Source: Mariniblastus fucicola (GTDB lineage Bacteria > Planctomycetota > Planctomycetia > Pirellulales > Pirellulaceae). From it: 64,000 nucleotides of DNA. The stretch covers positions 930,001 through 994,000 of the forward strand of contig NZ_CP042912.1 in the NCBI RefSeq assembly GCF_008087665.1. The letters run 5' to 3'. Position 1 is the stretch's first letter. Each line of letters begins with the position of its first letter. Made by a program: the position numbers and the translations under genes. Under the pieces are notes generated by a model. It was not told the DNA's origin, ran no database searches, and saw only the letters and a list, made by a program, of their open reading frames with translations. Positions 34,548 through 51,823 of this stretch are shown one piece after another.

Positions 34548-37500
34548 CTACGAGATATCGTAGATCGCCGCGGCCGTTTCCTTGATGCCTTTCAAGTCCA
34601 GCTTTCCGGTTCCGAGCAGCGGTAGCGAATCCACTTTGTGGAAACTGTCCGTCGACGGAACGAAGATGTTGGGCAAGCCAGCATCAGTCAACGCCTGTCG
34701 CATCTCATCAGGCGACGTGTGCGTCGTTGTGTACAACACCACCAACCGTTCGCCTTTTTTCTCATCCGGAACAGCCGTCACGGCGACGTGCAGTTCGTCA
34801 TCGGAATCGTCATCCGGGGTTCGATCAAGCAACTTCGAAAGAACCTCTTCGATTTTCAGATGCGGAATCATCTCGCCACCGATCTTTGAAAATCGGCTAA
34901 GCCGCCCCGTGATTGTGATGAAACCATCCTCATCGATCATCGCCATGTCGCCGGTCTTGAACCAGCTATCGACGATGACTTCGCGAGTCGCTTCCTCCTT
35001 GTTCAGGTAGCCCAGCATCACGTTCGGGCCCTTGATCCACAGCATTCCCGACTGGTTCGCCGGAAGTTCTTCGTTGGTATCGAGGTCGCAGACTTTCGCC
35101 GTCACATTGGCGATCGGACGCCCTACGGTTCCCTCTTTGGCTTCGACCTGAATGTCTCCCCGCCGTCGTGACTCCGGAATATTCGCCGAAACTCCTGGCG
35201 AAAGCTCCGTGATTCCGTAGCCCTGAACCGGGCGAACGCCAAACTTTTCTTCGTACTGATCCGCAAGCTCAGGCGGCAGTCGCTCCGCACCGGTGACGAC
35301 AGCATCGAGAGTCGCGAACTGTTCCGGCTTGCAACGTCGCATGTATGTTCGCAGGAACGTCGGCGTCGACATCAGGATCGTTCCCTTTTGCCGTTTCACC
35401 AGTTTGCCAACCTGTTTCGCATCCAGTGGATTCACGTGATAGGCGCCGCGGACATTGCACATCATCGCGCCCCACAGCGTGATCGTGTATCCGAACGAAT
35501 GGAAGTACGGCAAGATTCCGACGATCGTGTCGGTGGGCTGGAACTGAGCCGCTTTTTCGAAACCACGGACGTTGGAATGGATATTCTGGTGCGACAACAT
35601 CACGCCTTTGGGGACGCCCGTTGAGCCGGACGTGAACACAATGGTCATCAAGTCATCGGCTTTGATTGAGTTCAAACCAAGCAGGCTGCAGACCATGCCG
35701 GCGGGCAGCACATTGCCCATCAACGCTCCGATCGCTTTGTCCATGCCGGTGACTTTTTCCTTGAAGTCATCCAGATAAACCAGCTCGCAATCCAGCTCCA
35801 GGTGCGAGAACTTTTCCATCACCATACGTGTCGTCAACACGCGCTTGATCCCTGCTTCATGAATGCAGTGATTGATCAGTTCGTTCGACAGCGAGTAATT
35901 CAGGTTGATGGCAACGCGTTTGTCGAGAGCCAACGACAGGTTCGCGATCGCACCGGCAACGGTCGGCGGAATCAAAACCCCGACGTTCTGTTCGTCTTTC
36001 TCGAGAGTGAACTTTCGCAGCAACCGTCTCAGGATCAGGGCACGCGTTAGCAGCATGCCGCCTTTTTCATTTGAGCCAAGGCTATCAGCGATTTTGGATG
36101 TTTTGCGTTGAATCCTGCACGATTTGACAAACTCAACCACAGGAGAACGGAAGGGACCTACATAATTTGACACGGCTTCGGCACTCAATCTTTGCAAGGA
36201 AGTTTGGACGCTCAACATCGACTCCGGATGAGGCTCAACCGGTTTGCCAATGGTGATACTGATGGGGCGGCGAATACTGCGGGGCCATTTCCAGATAGCC
36301 TTACCATCGGCATAGCTAAAGATGCTTCCCCACACTTCATCAATATATACCGGAATAATAGGGACCTTACGATCCTGGAGGATTTTTAACAGCCCCGGTT
36401 TCAGCGTTCGAACCTGGCAACTTGGCGAGATTCCGCCTTCGGCAAAGATCCCCAACAGCTCTCCGTTGTCCACTGCCGCCCGCGAATCCTTGAACGCTTT
36501 GCGAATCGACTTTGGACCGCCACCGATCAGAATCACGCGACAAAACTCAGCCCATTTTTTCATGATCGAGTTGTTGAAGTTGCCGGCCCAGGCGATGACC
36601 CGAAATGGCTGAGGGATGAAAGTCAGAAAAATGACGCCGTCGAGCCAGTTCGAATGGTTGGCGACGAGAGCTCCGCCAGAATTCTGCGGAAGATTCTCCA
36701 TGCCCGTAATTTTGACGCGATAGATGCACTTCAGCATGAACACCCAGATCAAACGCATCGCCTCACGTGACAGCCGCCAGAGCGCGAACAGGAACACGGG
36801 AATCGTGCCGATGCCCATCAGCAGAAAAATCTGACGCGACGACAGCAGCGGCAGTTTCGAGGCTCTGAGCAGAATGCTCTTCAGCTTTCGCTTGTCGTTC
36901 GGCTCCGACTCGTCAAACAGACCTGCATAGTCGCTCGCAATCACGGTTTCATCTGCGGAGATTCTTGCTTTCGCGTCGTGGTAAATTAATTCGTTGGTCG
37001 CATAAAGTCGCGCTGCCGGTTCGGACTCCGGGATTGGATTCAGATTGTTGATTCGCGTCACCGCGTCGCTGTCTTCGAGCGATGAAATTTCAGTCGCTTC
37101 GGCCGCGGCCAAAATCTGTTCGCGTTGTTCAGCCGTGACCGAGTCGGCGATTCGGGACGACTCCAATCCGGAGGTCTCGGTCTCGTGAGTTGCCGTTCGC
37201 ATTGCATCGAGCCCAAACGAAAACAGTGCGATGCCAGCGAACATCAGGCAATTCGTGGCCGACAGGATTCGACCGCGCTGAGCCACCGGGCTTTTGTGCT
37301 GCAAATACGAATTCAATGGCACATCGAAAAATCCGGCGCTGATGCCCAGCCCGGCCAGCAGCATACAAGCCAACGCCTGGCCGCTGCCAAAAATGTTTCC
37401 AGTGATGAAGTTCTCGGGCGTAAACGCGAGCGCTACCATAAACGCAAACATTCCAAACGCCCCGATCGGCACCAGCCCCAGTTCGATTCGATTGCCCGAG

Positions 37501-38444
37501 GCAAGTCCGGCGACGACGCTGCCCACGCCCAGCCCAAGGACCAGCGAAACCAACAGAGGGAATTTTTCGCTTTCGGTGATACTGCCGCTTTCGTCTGCAA
37601 AAGCGTCGATGTTCAGCTGAGCCAGTCCTGCGATCGCGAGAAAGAAAACTGTTCCAAGCGCGACGCGAAACAGAGGTCCGCGTGTCGACAGATCAACAAT
37701 GTCACGCCACGTTTCGAGCAAAAAGTTCTTCGGAAAGGCAGCTTTCGGATTCGCGGCGGCGCGGGCTCGGATCAGGAAACTGATCAACGTTCCGAGCACG
37801 GCAACGCCAACAAGAATCAGCGCCGTTAGCCAAATGTATTTTTCGCCGCGAACCCCGGCGACGTCCGCCAGTTTGTTGCCAGCGCCCATTCCGATGACGA
37901 CCGCGGACAGAGTCGCGAGAGCAAAGATGCCATTTCCCTTGGAGATTTCTTCTTCGGAGAGCAGTTCCGGGATGGTGCCAATCTTTGACGGCGCGAACAG
38001 AGCACTTTGGGCGCCCATCAACGCGACCGTAAACATCAGCATGTAGATACTGCCGCATAGCAAGGAGATCACGCCCAGCGTCATCACGATGATTTCGGCG
38101 ACTTTGCAGGCGATGATGACATTGCGTTTGCGAAATCGATCCGCCAGCCAACCGGCCGGCGATGCGAACAGGATGTAGGGCAAGACAAAGCAAACGGTGC
38201 CGAACATCAGGATTCGGCCGTGATATTGCGGCGCGACGAAAGTCTTGCCGACGCCAATGACGAACCAGCGAAAGATGTTGTCGTTGATCGCCGTCAGCCA
38301 GTTGGTCCATAGCAAACCCTGGAAACTGGGAGACAGAATGCCTCCCGGTTCCGGTTTGATTTCCGGATCCGACTTCAGGTCCAAAACTGGTTGGCTGGCC
38401 AAAATCGGGTCGTCAACACCGGACACGTTTGTATGGTCGCTCAT
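34548..38444 (-). CDS. LplT-PlsC-acyl-ACP synthetase fusion (lysophospholipid salvage, Aas-like)
   Basis: 1,298 residues from the ATG at 38444 (MSDHTNVSGVDDP); the frame is open 46 codons further. Three domains follow in order. An MFS-type lysophospholipid flippase (about 30-560) has LASPAGWLADRFRKRNV and KLADVAGVRG. A PlsC acyltransferase (about 570-770) has NHSNWLD at about 597 (HX4D) and IFAEGGISPS. An acyl-ACP/AMP-binding synthetase (about 800-1298) has VFTSGSTGVPKGVML at about 936, GYGITELSPGVSANIP and DSWFKTGDMAMIDEDGF. Together they would flip lysophospholipids inward and re-acylate them. A charged loop of about 120 residues interrupts the MFS part before its final helix. It converges with the DUF6580-like gene. 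Confidence 0.92.
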   Translation of the reverse strand: MSDHTNVSGVDDPILASQPVLDLKSDPEIKPEPGGILSPSFQGLLWTNWLTAINDNIFRWFVIGVGKTFVAPQYHGRILMFGTVCFVLPYILFASPAGWLADRFRKRNVIIACKVAEIIVMTLGVISLLCGSIYMLMFTVALMGAQSALFAPSKIGTIPELLSEEEISKGNGIFALATLSAVVIGMGAGNKLADVAGVRGEKYIWLTALILVGVAVLGTLISFLIRARAAANPKAAFPKNFLLETWRDIVDLSTRGPLFRVALGTVFFLAIAGLAQLNIDAFADESGSITESEKFPLLVSLVLGLGVGSVVAGLASGNRIELGLVPIGAFGMFAFMVALAFTPENFITGNIFGSGQALACMLLAGLGISAGFFDVPLNSYLQHKSPVAQRGRILSATNCLMFAGIALFSFGLDAMRTATHETETSGLESSRIADSVTAEQREQILAAAEATEISSLEDSDAVTRINNLNPIPESEPAARLYATNELIYHDAKARISADETVIASDYAGLFDESEPNDKRKLKSILLRASKLPLLSSRQIFLLMGIGTIPVFLFALWRLSREAMRLIWVFMLKCIYRVKITGMENLPQNSGGALVANHSNWLDGVIFLTFIPQPFRVIAWAGNFNNSIMKKWAEFCRVILIGGGPKSIRKAFKDSRAAVDNGELLGIFAEGGISPSCQVRTLKPGLLKILQDRKVPIIPVYIDEVWGSIFSYADGKAIWKWPRSIRRPISITIGKPVEPHPESMLSVQTSLQRLSAEAVSNYVGPFRSPVVEFVKSCRIQRKTSKIADSLGSNEKGGMLLTRALILRRLLRKFTLEKDEQNVGVLIPPTVAGAIANLSLALDKRVAINLNYSLSNELINHCIHEAGIKRVLTTRMVMEKFSHLELDCELVYLDDFKEKVTGMDKAIGALMGNVLPAGMVCSLLGLNSIKADDLMTIVFTSGSTGVPKGVMLSHQNIHSNVRGFEKAAQFQPTDTIVGILPYFHSFGYTITLWGAMMCNVRGAYHVNPLDAKQVGKLVKRQKGTILMSTPTFLRTYMRRCKPEQFATLDAVVTGAERLPPELADQYEEKFGVRPVQGYGITELSPGVSANIPESRRRGDIQVEAKEGTVGRPIANVTAKVCDLDTNEELPANQSGMLWIKGPNVMLGYLNKEEATREVIVDSWFKTGDMAMIDEDGFITITGRLSRFSKIGGEMIPHLKIEEVLSKLLDRTPDDDSDDELHVAVTAVPDEKKGERLVVLYTTTHTSPDEMRQALTDAGLPNIFVPSTDSFHKVDSLPLLGTGKLDLKGIKETAAAIYDIS

Positions 38445-38783
38445 TAAGGCGCAATCTTGTTGAATGGGCTCAGTTGTCGAGAGCCGGTTTTGGAACGGGT
38501 ACGCGAATTTGAAACGGGCTGTAGACACGAAGATAACCGATTTTATCGATTTCTTCGCCACCAGTTTCCCTTCAGTTGTCAAAGCTTACCAGGTCCGCAG
38601 ACCGTGCTGAATCGTCACTGTCAGGAACAAATCAAACTGGTACAGGTGAGGCTCAAGTTGCTGGCACCACTGATCGATAACCATTGCAGCAAACGTGATT
38701 GACGGAAACGATATGAGTCTCGCACTGGCATCTGCTACGGGCTCTCTGCTTCCAGCACCCCTGACCTACGGAAAACACAATCC
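38445..38783. other. Divergent intergenic region upstream of the fusion gene and the small membrane protein
   Basis: 339 bp. The open stretch to 38582 on the minus strand might be an N-terminal extension of the fusion protein. No other coding or structural signal stands out. Confidence 0.35.
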
Positions 38784-40241: not shown

Positions 40242-42507
40242 ACGATTCCAGTTTTACATTGCCAATGCTGCTGACCATCAGAACTCTTGGCAGTCGTTCG
40301 ATCAGACGTTCTATCTGTGCGAAGAACTTATCTTCCTTCCCGGCGTCCGGCAGTTCAAAACCCAGAATCGTGACGGCTGAATCTTTTGACTGTTTGCCGA
40401 TCACGTGATGCGGGTGATCGGAAACGAAAACTTCGGCCTCGATTTCGATACGCGATTCATCCGCCAGGCCATGCAAGTGCTTCAACACGTCGGCTTTGGC
40501 TTCCTCGGACGAAACAACGCGCATCAGCCGAATCGGTTGGTTTCGCCAAACTGGATTTTGCTTCAACAGATGAGCAAACAGCAACATTAGCTCTCCATTC
40601 TTGCGACCACGCCACCAGACATCGATCGTTCCCGGAGGCGCCTGCTTCGGAGTTTCGGTGGGCTCAAGCCGAGCAATCACCACGTTCCGTCGTAGCTTTT
40701 GAACCGTACGCAATGTTGAAACCAGCGGCGTGGCTTTCTCGACGTCGCCGGGCCAGCCAATCAGCAGCGTGTTAGGCCGCAGTGCACCAAGGCCACTGCA
40801 TTGAACCAGGTACTCGATACCTTCGGAAAGTTTTGGGGCTGCGACGATGTTCGGAAACGCATCCAACTCCTCATCGACAATAAATTTTTCCAGCAACTGT
40901 TCCTGGTTGGCAATGCGGTCAATGTGTTCTTCTGCGTTGCCGCTAATCACCTGGCCAATATTCAGAATTCCATTCCCTCGAGTCAGCCAATGGCCGAACA
41001 TCGACAGGTTCAATCGGTTGCTGCCTCCACCGCTCATCGCCAACACAATCGGTCGCCAGTTCTTGGGGTGGTACATGGTTCGTTCAAGCTTCAGAAGGTT
41101 CCGACGGGTTCGCTCGAACAGCAAGCCGCTACCGAGGTCACCAAATTGGCTTTCGACCTGTTTGCGATAGATGAAAAAGTAGATCCCGACCATCATCACA
41201 GCGGATGCCAAAGCCCACAGCGGGTTCATCAACAGCATGACCGTAATACAGCCGATTGCTCCCAGCAGCGAAGTCACCCAATGGCTGTAGCGGAACGTAG
41301 GACGGTAGCTGGGGTTCTTCGTGATGCCTTCGTAGAACGTTGCGATGTTGATCGTCCCGTAGGTGATCATGAAAGCCATCGTAATCAGCGGCGCAATCGT
41401 GTTCAGGTCCGCCAACACGATGCACAGGCTGGAGATAATGAACGTGACAATCACCGCGCGGCGCGGTTCGTTGGTGGCTCCGCTGCCGACACCGAACAGG
41501 TTCAGCCGCGGGAAGATTTTGTCTTTCGCGAGAGCCTGCAGGATTCGCGGCGCTCCCATCATGCTGCCTAGAGCGCTCGAAAGCGTCGCGGCGAAGACTC
41601 CGGCCGTGATCAGAACCGGCCATTTGGAAATTTCTCCGATCACTGAGAAATTGCTGACGAGCGTTTCTGCCGGACGGCAACCGGCGATAAAGAACGCCAT
41701 CGCGGCGTATACGATCGCCGTTGTGACAATCGACCACAGCGTGCCGACGGGAATGCTGCGGCTCGGATTTTTGAGGTCTCCCGACATGTTTGCGCCGGCC
41801 ATGATGCCGGTCACGGCCGGGAAGAACAGTGCAAACATCGTGAACAGGTTTTCTTTCTTCCCGCCACCATCGGCATTGAGCGTATTGAGAAAGTGCGGAC
41901 CGACGTTTTCGGAGAGCTGAGTCCACTGGAATTGGTCGAAGCCGCCAAGAAAAAATGAGATCAGCGATGCGACGAGTGTAGCGAGAATGAAGTACTGAAC
42001 TTTGATCGTCCAGCCGGCTCCGATGAAGACACAGATAAACACAACGACATTGGTTAGCAACGCAACGAGTTTCACCGAGCTGCCATTGAGCTCGTTGACG
42101 ACTTCCGCGAATCCAATCACGTACATCGCCACCGAAATGGCCTGAGCCAAAAAGAAGACAATGCCGATCGCGCCGCCGAACTCGGCCCCGAGGGATCGGC
42201 TGATCAGAAAGTAGGCGCCGCCGCCTTTGACTTTCGTATTGGTGGCGACCGCGGAGAGGGAAAACGTGGTGAGAGTCGTGATGATTTTGGCACATAGCAA
42301 AATCACCAGCGCCCACATCAGTCCCGAGTTTCCGACGACGTAGCCGAAACGCCGGAACATGATCACGCCCAAAATTGTCAGTGTGCATGGCGTGAAGACG
42401 CCGCCGAAAGTGCCAAATCCCTGGAACTCGGGTTTTTCGTTTCGCTGACGGTTCGATGGAGCCGAATTCGAAACTGCGAGATCAGCCGGGTTTGCTGATG
42501 AACTCAT
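40240..42507 (-). CDS. Cation-chloride cotransporter-like APC-superfamily permease
   Basis: 755 residues. The start GFGTFGGVFTPCTLTILGVI followed by MFRRFGYVVG is the hallmark of the SLC12/cation-chloride cotransporter branch rather than of amino-acid permeases. About 12 helices extend to residue 455, with KVKGGGAYFLISRSLG, SNLGAMMGAPR-like SALGSMMGAPRILQALAKD and PRRAVIVTFIISSL. The C-terminal 280 residues are soluble and resemble the SLC12 cytoplasmic domain (RNLLKLERTMYHPKNWRPIV). Electroneutral ion movement is likely; the ions cannot be read. It diverges from the AAA+ operon. The stop codon lies in the MITE-like element. Confidence 0.85.
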   Translation of the reverse strand: MSSSANPADLAVSNSAPSNRQRNEKPEFQGFGTFGGVFTPCTLTILGVIMFRRFGYVVGNSGLMWALVILLCAKIITTLTTFSLSAVATNTKVKGGGAYFLISRSLGAEFGGAIGIVFFLAQAISVAMYVIGFAEVVNELNGSSVKLVALLTNVVVFICVFIGAGWTIKVQYFILATLVASLISFFLGGFDQFQWTQLSENVGPHFLNTLNADGGGKKENLFTMFALFFPAVTGIMAGANMSGDLKNPSRSIPVGTLWSIVTTAIVYAAMAFFIAGCRPAETLVSNFSVIGEISKWPVLITAGVFAATLSSALGSMMGAPRILQALAKDKIFPRLNLFGVGSGATNEPRRAVIVTFIISSLCIVLADLNTIAPLITMAFMITYGTINIATFYEGITKNPSYRPTFRYSHWVTSLLGAIGCITVMLLMNPLWALASAVMMVGIYFFIYRKQVESQFGDLGSGLLFERTRRNLLKLERTMYHPKNWRPIVLAMSGGGSNRLNLSMFGHWLTRGNGILNIGQVISGNAEEHIDRIANQEQLLEKFIVDEELDAFPNIVAAPKLSEGIEYLVQCSGLGALRPNTLLIGWPGDVEKATPLVSTLRTVQKLRRNVVIARLEPTETPKQAPPGTIDVWWRGRKNGELMLLFAHLLKQNPVWRNQPIRLMRVVSSEEAKADVLKHLHGLADESRIEIEAEVFVSDHPHHVIGKQSKDSAVTILGFELPDAGKEDKFFAQIERLIERLPRVLMVSSIGNVKLES

Positions 42508-42673: not shown

Positions 42674-45600
42674 ATGCACAATTTCAAGCACAAAATTTTC
42701 AAAGTCTGCCAGGAACTCGGAGATGATTTCGTCTGTATGAGAGCCCTGCTCTACCCCGAGATCAATCGTCTGTCCGATCAATGCAAGTCTGCACAGTTCG
42801 ACCGGCGGCTGATTGAGATCAGCGAAAATACCGAGATTGATTCGTTCTCCAAGCGAGTGTTGCCATCGGATCCCGTAACCGATTCGCTGTCGATTGAGCT
42901 GACGCCAACCAAAGATGTTGCCGCAAAACGTTGTTGGATCAAGCCAGCCAAATTCACGATGCACTACGTCGCCTGGCAGCATTCAAGCGAGCTGGTGCGA
43001 GCCTGGGTTCCGACGCTCGATCTAAGCATCGTCAAGCAAGGGAAGGTCGACGCCAAGTTCGTGGGCCAGATTCGCAGTGAGATTCGAAGTTGTCTGTTGC
43101 GAACGCAGCAGTTGGTCGAGCTTCGCAAGTTGGTCTACTTGCAAAACTCCGGGCCGTTTTCGATCGTCGAGTCGTCGTATGAAGTCTCCCTGCCGTCGGC
43201 GCGGGACGTTGCGAAAGAAGAACCGGCCGAAAACGAAAAGCGTGAACTGCCCGAGGTCGCCAGTCGACTTGATAAAGTCAATCGTGCCAGCCGAAAGTCA
43301 AAGAAAAGCAAACGCGGCGCTCAAACGATTCCAGCGTTTCATATCGACGATCAAATCCGGCAGTTGGCGGCTCGGCTGGCGGAGCCGGATCGGCAAAGCG
43401 TCCTTTTGGTTGGCCCGTCGGGCGTGGGCAAATCCAAAACCGTCCAGGCACTCGCGCGGCGGAAAAGGGGATTCGGTTTCGGGCCATTTGAGTTTTGGGA
43501 AACCAGCGGCTCGCGGATCGTCGCAGGAATGTCAGGTTTTGGTCAGTGGCAGGATCGTTGTCAAAAAATCACCGAAGAGCTGAAGCAGCGAGACGGGATT
43601 CTGCACGTCGGCAACCTGTTGGAGCTGTTGGAAACCGGCAAGTCATCGAATCAGGTGCAGAGCATCGCTTCGTGGATGCAAACGCAAGTCCAACGAGGCA
43701 ATTTGCAGATCATCGCCGAATGCACGCCCGAGCAGTTGGTCATTGCTGAAACTCGCGATCCGCAATTGCTTGAGTCGTTGACCGTACTGCGAATCGATCG
43801 ACCGGATTCGAATTTGCAAAAGAACATTTTTGGCTCGGTGCTCGATCATCTGTTGGAAAACTTGCCCGACAGCGATTCGTCTGACCCTGCCGTGACTGCC
43901 GATCCACAAGCCGTCGATTCGGTGTACTGGCTGCACCAGCGCTACGCAACTTATTCGGCCAATCCGGGCCGTCCCATTCAGTTTCTGCAGCGTTTGGTTG
44001 AAGACGCGTGGCACGAAGTCGAAAGTTCTGGTGATGCGAACCGAAAGGTGGTGCTTGATGCCGAGTTCGTGGCACGTGCATTTTCTGCGCGAACGGGTCT
44101 GCCTTTTTTTCTGCTCAGCCGCAACGAGCCGCTCGACCTGTCGGCGACTGAAGACTGGTTTCGCCAAAGAGTTCTCGGGCAACCCGTTCCGGTCCAAACC
44201 GTGACGAACCTGATCGCAACGATCAAGTCCGCGCTTTCTCCACCCGGCAAACCGATCGCGTCGCTGATGTTTATCGGACCCACCGGCGTCGGCAAAACCG
44301 AGATGGCAAAATCGTTGGCCGAGTTCATGTTTGGTTCGCAACAGCGATTGCTGCGATTCGACATGAGCGAGTTTTCTGATCCGGTCAGCGTCCAACGACT
44401 GATCGGAGGGACGGGAGAGAAAGAAGGCATCCTTACGGGCAAGGTCAAACAGCATCCGTTTTCAGTGGTGCTGTTCGACGAATTCGAAAAAGCTCACCCG
44501 GCGTTCTTCGATCTGCTTCTACAGGTGCTCGGAGAAGGCCGTCTGACCGATGGGCAGGGGCGCACGACAGACTTTTCGACGACGATCATTGTGATCACTT
44601 CGAATTTGGGAGCCGAACAATTCAAACCGGTTTCGTTCGGATTCGCGGGCGCGGAAAATGATGCAGACACCAAAGGTCAACGCTACGAAGATCACTTCGT
44701 AACCGAAGTTCGAAATAAACTTCGTCCGGAATTGTTCAACCGTCTTGATCGCATCGTTCCGTTCCGGCCGCTGCAAATGGAAACCGTTGAGCAAATCGTC
44801 GGCCGCGAAATTGAAAAACTGAAAAAGCGGGAAGGCATTTGGTATCGCCCAGTCACCTTGGACGTTCAGCCGGAAGTAATCCAGTGGCTCGCTCGCAGCT
44901 CGATGGATTTGCGTTATGGAGCTCGCCCGATTCAGCGGCTGATCCACGATCGACTCACTGTTCCGTTGTCGGAGAGTCTGGCCAACTTTACTCACGAGCA
45001 AAGCGTCGCTGTTGCGGTCACTTGCGATGAAACGGACTCTGCGAGAAAAATTCGCATCGAAGCCAAAGGAGTCGAAGAGGGAGCCGCAGAGATTCGCTCG
45101 TCGCGGTTGCTGATCGATGAAATTCAGCAGGTTCGCCGACGCGCACAGAAGCTTCGGGATGGGGATGTGATGGTCGGATTGCGAAACGAAATGTTCCGGC
45201 TGGTTCAGGCAAATCAACGCGATCACCGCAAGTTCAACAAACTGCTCAAAAAGAAACATCACGACGATTCATATCTGAACTCCTTGCAAGCGGCGATCCG
45301 CGAGCGAGAACCCGAGATCGAAAGTCATCGCTTTTATATCGACATGGCGGCATCGATCTTTGACCGCTGTAGTGATTTCGAAGAGCAAATGTTGCTGAAG
45401 TACTTTGCCAAACAGGACGTGGCGACCGGTCAGGCCAGGGCCGAAAAGAACGATCTTGATGCGGAAGTCAGCGAAGCCATCTTCAAGAACTTTCTGTTCC
45501 ATTCCGGTGCCGCGAACCGGGCTTCGGTTTTCATCTGGAGTCGGCATGAAGACATTCGGCAACAAATGGTCCGTGCCTACATCGATTTTGCTACGTCGCG

Positions 45601-46108
45601 AAACCTGCGAGTCACCTGCTACGCCGTGCTGCGATATGACTCCTCAGTTGAGGCGTCCAGGAAACAGGGAACGCTCGGCGGTGTGCCGGATGAAGACGGC
45701 GACACCGAGATCGTGGCGGATCTCTATCGCCAGCCAACGAACAATCCTTTCAGCGTCAGCCACGCAGCACCGTTGGGGTACGCACTCGAATTTAACGGAC
45801 CTGCAGCGTTTCCGATGTTTGGTCACGAAGCCTGCCGTCATCAGTTCCGCGAAGAAAAATTGAGAGACGCGCTCGTCGAAGTGACCGGCGAGAAAGTCAC
45901 GCGACATCAATTGTCGGATTTGGTCACGACACTGGGACCGTTTGATGAACTTTCCATCAAGCAGCGTGTCTACGACTTCTCTCGCAAGGTCGCGGTCGAC
46001 GCCGCGTTCGGTCATCTTCGCGACGTGGATTTCTCAAGCATCAGCAAACTCGTCGTTGGTTGTGTGGAGAAAGCCCTAGAAAAACACCTCGACAAGTTTA
46101 TGGAGTAA
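42674..46108 (+). CDS. ClpA/ClpC-like double AAA+ ATPase with C-terminal PCRF-like domain (first of three)
   Basis: 1,144 residues from the ATG at 42674, chosen because the frame upstream runs to 42506 and overlaps the divergent permease gene; an ATG at 42572 is possible. Residues 1-235 have no Clp_N repeats. Ring 1: Walker A GPSGVGKS (247), pore-type MSGFGQWQ, Walker B broken (ILHVGN, 309-314). Ring 2: Walker A GPTGVGKT (535), Walker B VVLFDEFEKAHP (D602, E603), sensor ITSNLGA, Arg finger RPELFNRLDR, sensor-2 YGARPIQR. The GYVG pore loop is replaced by the shorter GTGEKEGI (about 575-590). After a coiled coil (about 760-930), residues 945-1062 read like a release-factor PCRF domain (YIDFATSRN, GPAAFPMFGHEACRH) with a 45-residue insert. 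No M-domain. B follows 10 bp later. Confidence 0.9.
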   Translation: MHNFKHKIFKVCQELGDDFVCMRALLYPEINRLSDQCKSAQFDRRLIEISENTEIDSFSKRVLPSDPVTDSLSIELTPTKDVAAKRCWIKPAKFTMHYVAWQHSSELVRAWVPTLDLSIVKQGKVDAKFVGQIRSEIRSCLLRTQQLVELRKLVYLQNSGPFSIVESSYEVSLPSARDVAKEEPAENEKRELPEVASRLDKVNRASRKSKKSKRGAQTIPAFHIDDQIRQLAARLAEPDRQSVLLVGPSGVGKSKTVQALARRKRGFGFGPFEFWETSGSRIVAGMSGFGQWQDRCQKITEELKQRDGILHVGNLLELLETGKSSNQVQSIASWMQTQVQRGNLQIIAECTPEQLVIAETRDPQLLESLTVLRIDRPDSNLQKNIFGSVLDHLLENLPDSDSSDPAVTADPQAVDSVYWLHQRYATYSANPGRPIQFLQRLVEDAWHEVESSGDANRKVVLDAEFVARAFSARTGLPFFLLSRNEPLDLSATEDWFRQRVLGQPVPVQTVTNLIATIKSALSPPGKPIASLMFIGPTGVGKTEMAKSLAEFMFGSQQRLLRFDMSEFSDPVSVQRLIGGTGEKEGILTGKVKQHPFSVVLFDEFEKAHPAFFDLLLQVLGEGRLTDGQGRTTDFSTTIIVITSNLGAEQFKPVSFGFAGAENDADTKGQRYEDHFVTEVRNKLRPELFNRLDRIVPFRPLQMETVEQIVGREIEKLKKREGIWYRPVTLDVQPEVIQWLARSSMDLRYGARPIQRLIHDRLTVPLSESLANFTHEQSVAVAVTCDETDSARKIRIEAKGVEEGAAEIRSSRLLIDEIQQVRRRAQKLRDGDVMVGLRNEMFRLVQANQRDHRKFNKLLKKKHHDDSYLNSLQAAIREREPEIESHRFYIDMAASIFDRCSDFEEQMLLKYFAKQDVATGQARAEKNDLDAEVSEAIFKNFLFHSGAANRASVFIWSRHEDIRQQMVRAYIDFATSRNLRVTCYAVLRYDSSVEASRKQGTLGGVPDEDGDTEIVADLYRQPTNNPFSVSHAAPLGYALEFNGPAAFPMFGHEACRHQFREEKLRDALVEVTGEKVTRHQLSDLVTTLGPFDELSIKQRVYDFSRKVAVDAAFGHLRDVDFSSISKLVVGCVEKALEKHLDKFME

Positions 46109-46118
46109 CTTCGAACCG

Positions 46119-49100
46119 TTGGATATTTCTCTGCCAGTTTACGTCAAAGTCATCAAAGGCTCTGTCGATCGCAAGACCGTGTACCGCACGCAGTTGCTGT
46201 TCTCGTCGGGACATCACTCCGAGAACATCGTGCTTCAGCGCGCGATCCAGCGGCTGACGCGAAATGTGCGCAATCGCTGCGACGAGTTCGGCAAAGGGTG
46301 GAATCAGAGAAAGCTCCTGCCGTTGACTTTCAATCCGGCTTCCCTGCAACACACAACGCTCAAATTCGACATTCAACTTCGAAAAACGCGGTACAGTTGC
46401 AAGTATTTCATGGTCTGGTTTCAGGCGATGGGCCGTTGCATCGCGTTCTGTCCGGAATTGCCAGGCGTGTGGTTTGAGTTTGAAAAAGGCGAGCTTCAGG
46501 CTCGGGCAGAGGAAGTTTATTTGGCTCTGTTTCGCAAACTTGAGAAGGACGACGGCGCAGATTTTGTTTCGCCGGACCGGTATTCAATCGATAGCAAATC
46601 CTGGCTGACGTCGATCGACGTGACACTGAATATCAATCAGGAGTCGCGCGACGAGATGGAGAAGAAAATGCTCTCCATGTGGACGCGCGAAACCGTCAGT
46701 GGAGATTCGGAACTGACGCGCGTGGGACGTTGCCTCGATTGGCTCTATCCAGACGATCTGGACCGGGCGTTTTTGCGCGACCGGGAAGCAGAAACGCTGC
46801 TTAGTTTGCTGGAGTTGCCAGACCGCCGGCCTGTGTTGCTGGTCGGCGATTCACTGGTTGGGAAAACAACGCTGATCCACGAAGTCGTCGCCCGCCGGGT
46901 GAAAGCTCGACAGGACAAGGCGCTTGAGAAGGGGCAGGAACAAAAAGCCAATGCCAATCGAAAGAACGTGTGGTTGCTCGCGCCACAGCGTTTGATATCG
47001 GGCATGTCTTACGTCGGCCAGTGGGAGCAGCGAGTTCATGCGATCCTGAAAACGGCGGCTGAGAAAAAGCACACGCTGTACTTTGACGATCTGATCGGAC
47101 TGTTTCGGGCTGGGAAAAGTTCCAGTTCCAACCTCTGCGTCGCCGACCTGTTGCGGAAACCGCTACAGCAACGAAAAGTCAGGTTTTTGGCTGAATGCAC
47201 AACCGGGCAGTACGAACAGTTGCTGAATCTCGATCGTAGCTTTGCGGACCTGTTCCACGTAATGCATCTCGACGAAATGGATGAAGATCAAACGCTTCGT
47301 GTCTGCATCAAAACCAGTCGAACGATCGAGCATCAACATCAAACAAACTTTGACCCTGACGCTTTGCCAACCGTGATCCAGCTTCAGCGTCAATACGGCG
47401 GCGCGCAGCGGTTCCCCGGAAAAGCCGTTCGTTTTCTAAAGCAGATTGGCATCAAGCTTGGCTATCGTCAAATTCGGCGCAACGAAGTGTTGCAGGAAAT
47501 GGCGGCGACCAGTGGCATTCAGCTTCCGATGGTCGACGATCAGCAAACGCTGCTGAGGAAGGATGTTGTTGCAGACTTTGAAAACCAGATCGTCGGGCAG
47601 AAAAGCGCCGTCAACGCTTGCGTGGACTTGGTGATGACCGAGAAAGCTCGACTTTCGCCTCAAGGCAAGCCGATCATGACGCTCCTGTTCACAGGCCCGA
47701 CTGGCGTTGGCAAAACGGAGACTGCAAAAGCGCTCGCGAACTATCTGTTTGGCGATGCAGAGAAGATGGTTCGCTTTGACCTCAATGAGTTCAAGACGGG
47801 TTATAGCGCCGCGCGTTTGGTTGGGACGTTTGACGAACCCGAAGGCTTGCTGACCAGTGCAATTCGGCATCGGCCCTACAGCGTCATTTTGTTTGACGAA
47901 ATCGAGAAAGCTCATCCCGACGTGTTCGACGTGCTGCTGCAAGTGATCGGTGAGGGGCGGCTGACCGATGCGATTGGGCGGACGACAGATTTCGGCAACA
48001 CGGTCATTGTGATGACCTCCAATCTGGGGGCTCGGCGTGCCAGCCAGACGGTGGGTTTCGTGCCAGGCGACGATCAACGGCACTATATCGCGGCCGCGGA
48101 AAAGTTCTTTCGGCCAGAATTCTTCAACCGGATCGACCGCGTCGTGCCGTTTCACCATCTCGACCGCGAGCAGATTGCCGAGATCGCGGAAGGGCTGATG
48201 AGGAAAGTTGTCTCTCGCGAGGGGCTGATGCGGCGGCGTTGTATCTTGAACGTTGGGCCGGCGTTGATTTCGGACATCGTCGATGTCGGATACGATCAGG
48301 CGATGGGCGCTCGCGGGCTCAAGAGAGCCATTGAGCAGCATTTTACGCATCCCGTGGCCGCGGAACTTTCATCCATTCGCAGCGAAACGCCGACGCTAAT
48401 TACCGTCCGCAAGAAAGAACCCGCTGATACAGATGACGATCGGTCGAGCAAACTCAGTATCGACGTCTTGCCACTGGAGAACGTGGAGACGACCGAGCAG
48501 CCGGTCTACGATTCGCTTGAAGAACTTGGTGACATGGCAGAAGCGTTTCTTGATCGAATTCGAGAGAACGTATTGGCTCAGCGTCCCGACGGTGAAATCA
48601 GCGGTCGTGGTATGAGCCCCGAACTGCTTCGCTACTTCGCGCTTGTCGAGGAAGCCAATCAAATCGAGCAGAAAATCAATCAGCTGCGAGTTGTTTCGGA
48701 AGCAAAGTCCGATACGTCGATGCCAGCGATGCCGATCAGTCAGACTCGCCGCTCGGTCGCCGACCGCGAGAAGTACAGCATGCCTTCAAAAACGTTTTTG
48801 CAGGATGTGGCTTCGATCGGAGACATCCATCAGTTTCTCCAGGATGCGGGAGCCAAAGGCGCGATCACCGCAGAAACTTTGGCAGACCAATTGGTGCGAA
48901 GTTGTCGAGTTCTGGAGGCGATGGCTCAATCGAATGAATCCGAAGCAATTTTCTTTTTGAAGGACTCGTCAGCAAACGGCTTGGCTGAGGGGCTCGCGGA
49001 CAGTAGCGTTGCTGCCAGTTCGCAACAGCGTCCGTACCTGCACGCATCCCATCACGAAGAAGCGGTCCGCAGAATGGGATTTGATTGGCGTGCGAAAGAG

Positions 49101-49514
49101 ATGATGATTGGCGGCCAGGCGGTGAGGCTGTTGTACGTGTCGGGCAGTTGCGTAACGGCGATGCTGCGAAACGAAATTGGCTTTAGCCTGTGCTGCGACT
49201 CATGGGGGCGATTGACGCTGGACGAGACAGGAATCCTGACTTCTGAAGATCCTGACTTTCAAAAACTTAAGGCCGCGATCCTGTCCGAGGATGCGATTCG
49301 CGAACCTGTTTCCTGCCAGAGCATCGAAACTGTACGGCGTCATCAGGTGCTGCGATTTTGGGGCAACACGTCGATGGATTTTCGCACCGAGCAAACGATC
49401 GATGGCAAAGATCAAACTCAAAGGCTGCTGTCTCTGATCCAAAGCGGTTTGCCGCTGCCAAACGAATTTAGTGCTTCCAGTCAGTCAAAACAATCGCAAC
49501 GGAAAGGGGAATGA
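46119..49514 (+). CDS. ClpA/ClpC-like double AAA+ ATPase with C-terminal PCRF-like domain (second of three)
   Basis: 1,131 residues, TTG start at 46119 (LDISLPVYVKVIKG as coded), 10 bp after the first gene; GGAG lies at 46102-46105. The N-terminal part (1-230) contains AFCPELPGVWFEFEKGELQ and a following helix, very like HicB. Ring 1: Walker A GDSLVGKT (243), YVGQWEQR pore region, Walker B TLYFDD (D323, D324). Ring 2: Walker A GPTGVGKT (526), Walker B VILFDEIEKAHP (D593), MTSNLGA, RPEFFNRIDR, MGARGLKR. The pore loop is deleted (RLVGTFDEPEGLL, about 566). A VGF tripeptide sits in the loop before the Arg finger (QTVGFVPGD). At the C-terminus a coiled coil is followed by a PCRF-like segment (YVSGSCVTAMLRNEIG, about 1006-1021). 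The last 4 nt overlap the third gene. Confidence 0.9.
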   Translation: MDISLPVYVKVIKGSVDRKTVYRTQLLFSSGHHSENIVLQRAIQRLTRNVRNRCDEFGKGWNQRKLLPLTFNPASLQHTTLKFDIQLRKTRYSCKYFMVWFQAMGRCIAFCPELPGVWFEFEKGELQARAEEVYLALFRKLEKDDGADFVSPDRYSIDSKSWLTSIDVTLNINQESRDEMEKKMLSMWTRETVSGDSELTRVGRCLDWLYPDDLDRAFLRDREAETLLSLLELPDRRPVLLVGDSLVGKTTLIHEVVARRVKARQDKALEKGQEQKANANRKNVWLLAPQRLISGMSYVGQWEQRVHAILKTAAEKKHTLYFDDLIGLFRAGKSSSSNLCVADLLRKPLQQRKVRFLAECTTGQYEQLLNLDRSFADLFHVMHLDEMDEDQTLRVCIKTSRTIEHQHQTNFDPDALPTVIQLQRQYGGAQRFPGKAVRFLKQIGIKLGYRQIRRNEVLQEMAATSGIQLPMVDDQQTLLRKDVVADFENQIVGQKSAVNACVDLVMTEKARLSPQGKPIMTLLFTGPTGVGKTETAKALANYLFGDAEKMVRFDLNEFKTGYSAARLVGTFDEPEGLLTSAIRHRPYSVILFDEIEKAHPDVFDVLLQVIGEGRLTDAIGRTTDFGNTVIVMTSNLGARRASQTVGFVPGDDQRHYIAAAEKFFRPEFFNRIDRVVPFHHLDREQIAEIAEGLMRKVVSREGLMRRRCILNVGPALISDIVDVGYDQAMGARGLKRAIEQHFTHPVAAELSSIRSETPTLITVRKKEPADTDDDRSSKLSIDVLPLENVETTEQPVYDSLEELGDMAEAFLDRIRENVLAQRPDGEISGRGMSPELLRYFALVEEANQIEQKINQLRVVSEAKSDTSMPAMPISQTRRSVADREKYSMPSKTFLQDVASIGDIHQFLQDAGAKGAITAETLADQLVRSCRVLEAMAQSNESEAIFFLKDSSANGLAEGLADSSVAASSQQRPYLHASHHEEAVRRMGFDWRAKEMMIGGQAVRLLYVSGSCVTAMLRNEIGFSLCCDSWGRLTLDETGILTSEDPDFQKLKAAILSEDAIREPVSCQSIETVRRHQVLRFWGNTSMDFRTEQTIDGKDQTQRLLSLIQSGLPLPNEFSASSQSKQSQRKGE

Positions 49515-51823
49515 TGTCGTACAAAAAATTCCCAATCGTCTGGTGGAAAGACCGTCAGGGCACGTTTTACGCTCAGACAGTCAGCGGAGAATCGGTCTGC
49601 GCTGCGGATGATGACCTGAAGAAATGCGTTCGGCAAATCAAGTCGGCGATCCTTTGGCATTCCGAGAACACGTACGTTTCCGAAGCGGAATTTGAAGCTC
49701 CGAATCTTGAGTTGCTGAAGGTTGCCATTCGCACCTCAGAGACCTTTCGCGAACGCCGACATCTTTCCAGCGAGCAAACGTGGGTTTCGGTGCCCTGTGT
49801 TTGGGGAAAGCGGGACGATGGGTCCGTGGTCTGCAACGCCCCGACGATCGAACTCAAGTTTCAATGTGACTCAGAAGATAAATTCCGGGAGATCGCTCGC
49901 GAGGAAATTCAGTCGAGACTCAACGGATGCTCGCAAGCTCAGCTTGCTTCGATGTTGCCCGAAAACGGACTTATCGTGGACGTTGTGAATGTGAAACTGG
50001 GCGAGTCAAAAGACACGCAATGGTCTTTCGATTGCGAAAATCTCGAAACAGTGGCCAATCCGCTTACCGGACGCCACGCACAAAAACAGTTCAGTGCACC
50101 GATTAATCGGGATGAGGAAGTCGCCAGCTTGCACCGCCGACTGCGTCTCCAGCAAGGTAACCTGTTGATCGTTGGGCCGCGTGGAGTTGGGAAATCGACG
50201 ATCGTCGCGGCTGCTGCACGCAAGTTTCAGGACACACGACGCAAGGCAGCCAAGGAATCGGCAGCGGAATCGGAAATTGATACCGCGAAGGCCCAGATGC
50301 CTTCGATGTGGATGTGCAGTGCTGATCGAATCGTCGCTGGCATGCGATATCTTGGCGAGTGGGAGCAACGTCTGGAGCGAGTCATCGAAGAGTTGGCTGA
50401 ATTCCAGGGCATTCTTTGCTTCGAGCGGCTCGACGCGCTCTGTCGGCTTGGCGGCGAAGACGCGTCGGCCAGCATCGCATCGTTTCTGGCTCCGTTTATT
50501 CAGAATCGTGAACTGCGAGTGATCGTCGAAGCGACTCGCGAAGAACTTGATCAATGTCGGTTGCTTTTGCCAGGATTCGAGAATCTGTTTGAGGTGTTTG
50601 AAGTTGAACCAATGCCCGAAGAACAGGCGCGACAGCTGCTCGATGGGCTGGGAAAAGAATACACACGCAATCACAAAATTGAATTTGAACCAGAATCCGC
50701 GGTGCTTTGTCAGCGACTGTTCAAAAGATTCATGCCCTACGATACGTTTCCTGGAAAGTGCGTTGGCTTTTGGAAGGGATTGTTCGAAACGGCCAAACGG
50801 GACCGGGCTGCGAAGATTGGTCAGGATAACGTCGTTTCTGCTTTCATCGACCTGACCGGATTGCCTGAATCATTGATTCGAGACAAAGTCAGTTTGCCGA
50901 CGAACGAGATTCGCGATTGGTTTGCCGAGCGAATTATCGGCCAACCAGATCCTTGCAATCGACTGACGGATGTCATCGCCACATTCAAGGCCGGTCTGAA
51001 CGATCCCAATCGGCCAATCGGTATCATGTTGTTCTGCGGACCAACAGGTGTCGGGAAAACCGAAACGGTCAAGGCGCTGACGCGATACATGTTTGGCAAC
51101 GCGACGACGACCAGCGAACATGAAAAACAAGCCGTCGTCCGTGATCGACTGGTGCGTTTGGACATGAGTGAGTTCGCTGGTATCGGTGCGGCGCAGCGTT
51201 TAACCATTCAGAGCAATGGCCAGCCCGGGGAGTTGGTCAAACGACTTCGCCAGCAGCCGTTTTCAATTGTGCTGTTGGACGAAATTGAAAAAGCATCATC
51301 CGACGTGTTCGACGTGCTGATGGGCGTGATGGATGAAGGTCGTCTGACCGACAAGTGGGGGCGAGTGACAGATTTTCGCAGCAGCATCATTATTATGACT
51401 TCGAATCTTGGTGTGCAATCGAGGGAGTCAGTTGGATTCAAGGCCGACACGGACTCTGGTTTCGAAGCCGGTGTGCGAAAGTTCTTTCGGCCAGAATTTT
51501 TTAATCGAATTGATCGCATCGTTTCATTTGCTCCGCTGTCGCGAGAGTCAGTGGCCAGAATCGCAGAGCTGGAACTCCAGGCGATGACACAGCGTGAAGG
51601 TTTCAGCAGTCGACGATTGAAGCTGAATTGGAACAACGAAGTGACATCGTTTCTGGCCAGCCAGAGCTACAGCAAAAAACTTGGGGCTCGGCCGCTGCAG
51701 CGTACGATCGAACAGCAAGTCAGTACTCGCATCGCCAGAATTCTCGCTGCCCAACCTGGACTTTCCGACTCAACTTTCGCGCTTTCAATTTCAGGTGGCG
51801 AGCTTTTGGTGGACGTTCGGTGA
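49511..51823 (+). CDS. ClpA/ClpC-like double AAA+ ATPase without C-terminal extension (third of three)
   Basis: 770 residues; starts in the ATGATG at 49511, with AAGGGG just upstream and a 4-nt overlap with the second gene, a sign of translational coupling. The N-terminal region (1-200) has two halves that align with the first two proteins (FPIVWWKDRQGTFYAQTVSG; WVSVPCVWG). Ring 1: Walker A GPRGVGKS (222), MRYLGEWEQR pore region, Walker B broken (ILCFER, 301-306). Ring 2: Walker A GPTGVGKT (510), Walker B IVLLDEIEKASS (D590), MTSNLGV, RPEFFNRIDR, LGARPLQR. The GYVG pore loop is replaced (RLTIQSNGQPGEL, about 563). It has a VGF in ESVGFKADT. It ends shortly after the D2 small domain, like ClpA/ClpC, and has no coiled coil or PCRF-like part. 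Confidence 0.9.
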   Translation: MMSYKKFPIVWWKDRQGTFYAQTVSGESVCAADDDLKKCVRQIKSAILWHSENTYVSEAEFEAPNLELLKVAIRTSETFRERRHLSSEQTWVSVPCVWGKRDDGSVVCNAPTIELKFQCDSEDKFREIAREEIQSRLNGCSQAQLASMLPENGLIVDVVNVKLGESKDTQWSFDCENLETVANPLTGRHAQKQFSAPINRDEEVASLHRRLRLQQGNLLIVGPRGVGKSTIVAAAARKFQDTRRKAAKESAAESEIDTAKAQMPSMWMCSADRIVAGMRYLGEWEQRLERVIEELAEFQGILCFERLDALCRLGGEDASASIASFLAPFIQNRELRVIVEATREELDQCRLLLPGFENLFEVFEVEPMPEEQARQLLDGLGKEYTRNHKIEFEPESAVLCQRLFKRFMPYDTFPGKCVGFWKGLFETAKRDRAAKIGQDNVVSAFIDLTGLPESLIRDKVSLPTNEIRDWFAERIIGQPDPCNRLTDVIATFKAGLNDPNRPIGIMLFCGPTGVGKTETVKALTRYMFGNATTTSEHEKQAVVRDRLVRLDMSEFAGIGAAQRLTIQSNGQPGELVKRLRQQPFSIVLLDEIEKASSDVFDVLMGVMDEGRLTDKWGRVTDFRSSIIIMTSNLGVQSRESVGFKADTDSGFEAGVRKFFRPEFFNRIDRIVSFAPLSRESVARIAELELQAMTQREGFSSRRLKLNWNNEVTSFLASQSYSKKLGARPLQRTIEQQVSTRIARILAAQPGLSDSTFALSISGGELLVDVR

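Follow-up and report, generated by a model that had tools for sequence, protein, structure and literature searches.

A co-inherited trio of two-ring Clp-type AAA+ proteins, one with a release-factor-like tail, in Mariniblastus fucicola

We analyzed a 64,000-nucleotide stretch of Mariniblastus fucicola DNA (the whole of it is called the window below) in which three consecutive open reading frames (ORFs), all on the forward strand, encode two-ring AAA+ proteins; we refer to the genes as A, B, and C. A and B are spaced by 10 bases and B and C overlap by 4 bases, in agreement with an earlier note on this DNA, which had reported three consecutive genes with gaps of +10 and −4 bp. The reading frame of gene A is open already from position 42506. 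Because alignments of most A homologs begin only at about residue 52–63 of this longer ORF, the ATG at 42674, also the start given in the earlier note, is a reasonable one. The genes and their parts are listed here by window coordinates (aa, amino acids).

42674..46108 (+), gene A, 1144 aa: HicB-like N-domain, rings D1 and D2, release-factor-like C-terminus
42674..43348 (+), A N-domain, 225 aa modelled: predicted HicB-like pair of beta-beta-beta-alpha-beta units
43331..44104 (+), ring D1 of A (approximate limits): retains Walker A but has lost the Walker B acids and the Arg-finger pair
44144..45019 (+), ring D2 of A (approximate limits): retains the ATPase motifs and has an SFGF loop but no GYVG pore loop
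45053..46105 (+), last 351 aa of A: predicted fold of a class-I release factor, GGQ domain absent
46119..49514 (+), gene B, 1131 aa, starting with TTG
46119..46772 (+), B N-domain: profile relative of the A N-domain (hhalign)
46773..48410 (+), B D1 and D2 rings, approximate: Asp-Asp instead of Asp-Glu in D1; D2 with intact motifs and a TVGF loop
48396..49511 (+), last 372 aa of B: probably a worn release-factor-like domain (hhalign)
49511..51823 (+), gene C, 770 aa, without C-terminal extension
49511..50104 (+), C N-domain: profile relative of the A N-domain (hhalign)
50105..51754 (+), C D1 and D2 rings, approximate: CFERL at the D1 Walker B site; D2 motifs intact, SVGF loop

Each protein contains two AAA modules, the second of which consists of AAA_2 and ClpB_D2-small, over the Pfam cut-off in all three. 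Matches to the ClpA and ClpB models have E values of 1e-76 to 1e-95, which, together with the recurrence of the A-B-C order in other genomes, speaks against a chance finding. By its sequence the motor of A, B, and C clearly belongs to the Clp/Hsp100 kind, textbook unfoldases that are usually described as homo-hexamers. The curated cut-offs of the individual families were nevertheless missed by a wide margin. A, B, and C scored 295, 315, and 290 bits with ClpB (TIGR03346, cut-off 1232), 257, 319, and 280 bits with ClpA (TIGR02639, cut-off 993; the match starts past the N-domain), and 232, 243, and 224 bits with ClpV/TssH (TIGR03345, cut-off 884.95). When the organism's own genome was scanned for Clp_N (PF02861, E ≤ 10), no match was found in A, B, or C; two repeats were present in each of two other two-ring Clp proteins, of 911 and 878 aa, which look ClpB-like and ClpC-like by sequence. 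Alignment with the genome's own ClpB-like protein showed that the ClpB middle domain is absent from the A, B, and C rows, as is the ClpC middle insert. Over the rings the three proteins are about 36% identical to one another. In a FastTree phylogeny of D1 and D2 (72 sequences, 523 columns), A, B, and C are each monophyletic (support 0.849, 0.985, and 0.998), and ClpB, ClpC, and ClpV together form a separate clade (0.839); the midpoint root falls on one long branch, which makes the depth of the tree uncertain.

To characterize the rings, motifs were counted on deduplicated sequences, with 17 ordinary Clp proteins for comparison. Walker A of D1 is present in 23/24 A, 19/21 B, and 24/24 C sequences, but the catalytic Asp-Glu of Walker B and the Arg-finger pair of D1 occur in none. 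An AAA+ ring without the catalytic Glu and Arg fingers may bind ATP with no turnover. D2, by contrast, has Walker A, Walker B, the Arg finger, and sensor 2 in every A, B, and C sequence. By these motifs, D1 keeps its ATP-binding Walker A without the residues for hydrolysis, and D2 has all the ATPase motifs examined. The ordinary proteins have each motif in 16/17 cases and sensor 2 in 17/17, the sole exception being a wrong ORF. The D1 pore aromatic is found in all 24 C and in 15 of 21 B sequences; A has it at the same position in 1/24, and at that or the next residue in 16/24.

The pore of D2 is altered as well. Its GYVG loop, whose tyrosines hold substrate, is absent from all A (0/24), B (0/21), and C (0/24) sequences and present in 16/17 ordinary Clp proteins; in the ring alignment the corresponding segment of the trio is shortened and GYVGY is missing. 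After sensor 1 of D2, most sequences carry a G[FL] loop (A 20/24, B 19/21, C 23/24; SFGF, TVGF, and SVGF in the window), as do 4/4 ClpC-like and 0/12 ClpB-like proteins. Such G[F/L] loops are the docking site for ClpP. The genome has three ClpP-family genes; the third, weaker one (G000:C1:4827837-4828247, 80.8 bits) lies away from the clpP pair at 518 kb.

Model scores, the Clp_N scan, motifs, and tree together rule out an ordinary ClpA, ClpB, ClpC, or ClpV identity. The earlier view of the three proteins as having two Clp-type AAA modules each, non-Clp N-termini, and a place outside the ordinary Clp unfoldases thus stands: the AAA_2 and ClpB_D2-small profiles match all three and Clp_N none, and their clades lie apart from ClpB, ClpC, and ClpV. 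Its "non-standard build" is likewise borne out, although the worn D1, the absent D2 pore loop, the HicB-like N-domain, and the release-factor tail had been overlooked.

The predicted model of the C-terminal ~350 residues of A has a class-I release-factor fold. Foldseek ranks 1–37 are all release factors, as are VIA ranks 1–41 for the same model. The tail covers the fold of release-factor domains 1 and 2/4 (PCRF) and is without the stretch of domain 3, so that the GGQ domain is gone. Class-I release factors read stop codons with an SPF/PxT motif; inspection by eye of the alignments of A tails, and of those of a single-gene cousin family described below, found no counterpart. A plain Pfam PCRF scan of the organism's own genome did not reach A at E ≤ 10. 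We conclude from the model and the alignments that the A tail derives from a class-I release factor that lost both its stop-codon-reading loop and its GGQ domain. For the B tail, hhalign gave 93.5% to the A tail and 60.2% to release factors, and the score of 59.8 between the A and B tails compares with at most 41.8 in 40 block shuffles. An hmmsearch of the B tail against PDB sequences (E ≤ 10) returned no release factor and three unrelated hits. B probably carries a worn release-factor-like domain, as judged by profile.

Support for this assignment comes from the cousins, proteins encoded by one gene and ~1150–1250 aa long where complete. Of the 62 genomes of the phylum sample that gave hits, 38 are without a C at ortholog level; G250 and G253 are set aside in this count, and G359, counted among the 38, has a stop-containing fragment. 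Eight cousin proteins were inspected (L072, L073, L074, L075, L076, L051, L055, and L056); their Clp rings are rebuilt like those of the trio. Seven of them have the D2 Walker B and an LGF, VGF, or IGF loop, and GYVG is absent in all six whose segment the pattern located. An alignable RF2-like C-terminus without GGQ is present in 7/8, the GGQ site reading RGR (three proteins), KGR, SGR, HGR, or EGV. With a profile of four cousin tails, every PDB match at E ≤ 1 was a release factor (42 sequences; lowest E 3.3e-32), and the match extends over almost all of RF2, the domain 3 region included. Pfam PCRF was over the cut-off in 4/5 scanned cousins. At the N terminus, HEAT_2 was over the cut-off in two of these five (L074 and L076) and just under it in L072 and L073; it was not among the families shown for L075. 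In the D1 and D2 tree the cousins fall outside A, B, and C and adjoin the ordinary Clp clade with weak support (0.783).

By sequence, then, a Clp motor fused to a nearly whole, dead RF2 exists. Profile comparison with the cousin tail gave 95.8–96.8% for the A tail; the value for the B tail was 96.7% when 16 sequences of B were used and 78.4% when 6 were. These matches indicate that A, and probably also B, carries a worn version of such a domain. A literature search, which had most subscription papers outside its reach, found no description of a Clp–release-factor fusion.

The N-domain of A is modelled as two beta-beta-beta-alpha-beta units and bears a tentative resemblance to a doubled HicB fold. 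It has no sequence match to HicB, and Foldseek gave no significant match, the top rows being mostly MHC-like platforms at E ≥ 0.03. The earlier claim of related N-termini fares well for A and B (96.3% in one hhalign run, 93.0% in another) and for A and C (97.6% and 93.1%), but a direct profile comparison of B and C gave 3% in one run and 25% in another. The N-domains of the cousins showed no profile match to those of A, B, or C.

We next considered how the three genes are distributed. Ortholog calls relied on gaps in bit score (A ≥ 378, next 347; B ≥ 380, next 345; C ≥ 355, next 314). Among 392 genomes sampled from the phylum, A is present in 22, all of which have C and 21 of which have B. The single genome lacking B (G104) is an assembly in 1330 contigs; in G250 a partial C lies at a contig end, and the three divergent members in G253 cannot be assigned to A, B, or C. 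Hence the triplet is inherited as a set in those planctomycetes that carry it, and the co-occurrence on which the earlier proposal depended is nearly complete.

A scan of GTDB contigs with a profile of the A N-domain and D1 kept at least 80 loci. The best-scoring among the matches listed come from Planctomycetota, Acidobacteriota (Pyrinomonadaceae, Blastocatellia), Saprospiraceae, and "Deltaproteobacteria" metagenome-assembled genomes (MAGs); the lowest-scoring among them are mostly ClpV-like proteins of other bacteria. An A ortholog is present in ten genomes behind these contigs; the complete trio occurs in eight of them, A and C in G433, and A only in G432. The genes lie on three separate contigs in G430, G431, G434, and G438 (the last with short contigs), A is ~86 kb from C in G435 and apart from a B-C pair in G436, and the A-B-C order is preserved in G439 and G440. 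The trio is therefore inherited as one set even where it is not an operon, and the co-occurrence of unlinked A, B, and C is a stronger argument for a single machine than the operon. Because several genomes carry the genes apart, the fixed stoichiometry that had been proposed from translational coupling is unsupported.

A divergent array of three genes is found in an eleventh genome, G437. Divergent arrays of two or three genes, with no clean sorting into A, B, and C, were seen at L117:5548-15850, L235:423-9526, and L071, hosted by a "Deltaproteobacteria" MAG, a Polyangiaceae MAG, and G253. At L063:10083-13381 (G286) gene B is in two frames, through a frameshift or an assembly error, and was dropped from alignments.

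Presence of the trio is patchy. Within the genus, 3/25 genomes have an ortholog-level C; among 15 other genomes of the order, one has a broken copy. In G028, from another family of the order, a decayed trio is spread over ~15 kb (L059:8266-14040 and L060:1488-2870) as a stop-interrupted C, another piece of C, and pieces of the B tail and the A head. No clean empty site, as sought for a horizontal insertion, was found: seven genus members without the trio have other genes beside the permease (two of the contigs are shorter than 10 kb), a pattern compatible with loss as well as with gain at this site.

Upstream of A in the window is a divergently oriented gene for an SLC12-type transporter; 3′ of C lie a thioredoxin-like and then a glycosyltransferase gene and, farther beyond, genes that look like succinate dehydrogenase genes. 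When 37 loci were compared, no neighbour besides the trio itself was conserved across taxa. Of the neighbour clusters found in at least three loci, the one in six loci was not annotated, one in four loci consists at least partly of reverse ORFs overlapping gene C, and the rest are confined to close relatives. Elsewhere in the window, at 34548-38582 (−), a single 1344-aa protein carries successive MFS, acyltransferase, and AMP-binding domains (Pfam).

We propose, in line with the earlier note, that A, B, and C each serve as a dedicated subunit in a single hetero-oligomeric two-ring machine of the Clp/Hsp100 type. D1 and the HicB-like N-domains would form a structural and client-binding tier, and the ring would be driven by D2 alone. 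The dead release-factor domain of A, probably also that of B, would dock on the ribosomal A site or on a release-factor partner. On a ribosome that is stalled or terminating, the ring would then pull the nascent chain or some other component, and perhaps pass it to ClpP. The heteromer is the firmest of these steps, the ribosome comes next, and the ClpP step is the least certain. Taken whole, a heteromeric, D2-driven Clp machine aimed at the ribosome by dead release-factor tails seems to us a little short of an even chance.

The same heteromeric machine might instead work as a specialized unfoldase or disaggregase with no ribosome involved, the release-factor domain being only a scaffold for assembly, client binding, or ClpP gating. 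Such a role fits the loss of the GGQ motif and reading loop, the loss of the entire GGQ domain in the case of A, the missing tail of C, and the lack of a translation gene among conserved neighbours; clients could be bound by the HicB-like N-domains. However, the cousins examined keep almost the full length of RF2, including the domain 3 region, which is more than a scaffold should need, and we regard this alternative as somewhat doubtful.

A defence or conflict function is unlikely. Here a patchy accessory machine would block or salvage translation when a phage attacks or a toxin acts, and its dead release factor would sense a blocked A site. The distribution within the genus, the broken locus in another family, and a HicB-like fold known from antitoxins are compatible with this idea, and PADLOC models with a Clp-like ATPase match D2 (PDC-M37B, E 2.3e-31; DolB, 2.6e-28). 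These hits cover D2 only in A and B and both AAA modules in C, never the special ends, and an assignment as a defence system by PADLOC was rejected for that reason. Moreover, a Pfam scan of the trio's neighbours found no defence gene, 59 pattern matches in viral contigs yielded no confirmed relative, and the trio's GC (guanine plus cytosine) content (0.53–0.54) resembles that of the window (0.534). That the genes are three independent Clp paralogs left by tandem duplication, as their adjacency in the window and recognizable paralogy could suggest, is very improbable given their separate clades, their own D1 signatures, and their co-occurrence even when unlinked.

The proposed D2-driven machine overlaps several known systems. 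With ClpA/ClpC it shares two Clp-type modules, the D2 small domain, and the G[F/L] loop seen in the genome's ClpC-like protein, but it differs in having no Clp_N or ClpC middle insert, a worn D1, no D2 GYVG, three paralogs, and a release-factor tail. The two-ring build and D2 module recall the ClpB/Hsp104 disaggregases, from which the trio departs by lacking the middle domain and Clp_N, by its worn D1, and by its G[F/L] loop. Unlike RF2 (PCRF family), with which the A tail shares the fold of domains 1 and 2/4 and the cousin tail almost the full length, the trio has neither GGQ nor the SPF/PxT reading loop, and its release-factor domain is fused behind a Clp motor. The A N-domain differs from the HicB antitoxin in sequence, and a HicA partner was sought among the scanned neighbours only. 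Pex1/Pex6 is a two-ring AAA heterohexamer with an inactive D1 and an active D2, but it is eukaryotic and peroxisomal, with two subunits and unrelated N-domains. In eukaryotic ribosome quality control the Cdc48 AAA+ motor works with release-factor-like Vms1 (PMC6514570); Vms1 is a protein of its own from the unrelated archaeal-eukaryotic release-factor superfamily, whereas the release-factor domain of the trio is fused. "Clp" and "PCRF" are both absent from the main text of that article, and passages on Clp in PMC7159879 deal with other systems.

The function of the trio may be of a new kind. Tentatively, we suggest a new class of bacterial translation quality control in which an obligate three-subunit, D2-only Clp ring docks on the ribosome through a dead release factor, extracts nascent chains or dismantles stalled complexes, and optionally feeds ClpP, as an independently built analogue of Cdc48–Vms1. 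If this is true, a conserved three-subunit ring with a worn D1, no D2 pore loop, and a release-factor tail would represent a new type of Clp machine that physically and directly links AAA+ motors to the termination or rescue of bacterial translation. The fusion of a Clp motor to a nearly whole RF2-like domain in the cousins makes the ribosome hypothesis directly testable.
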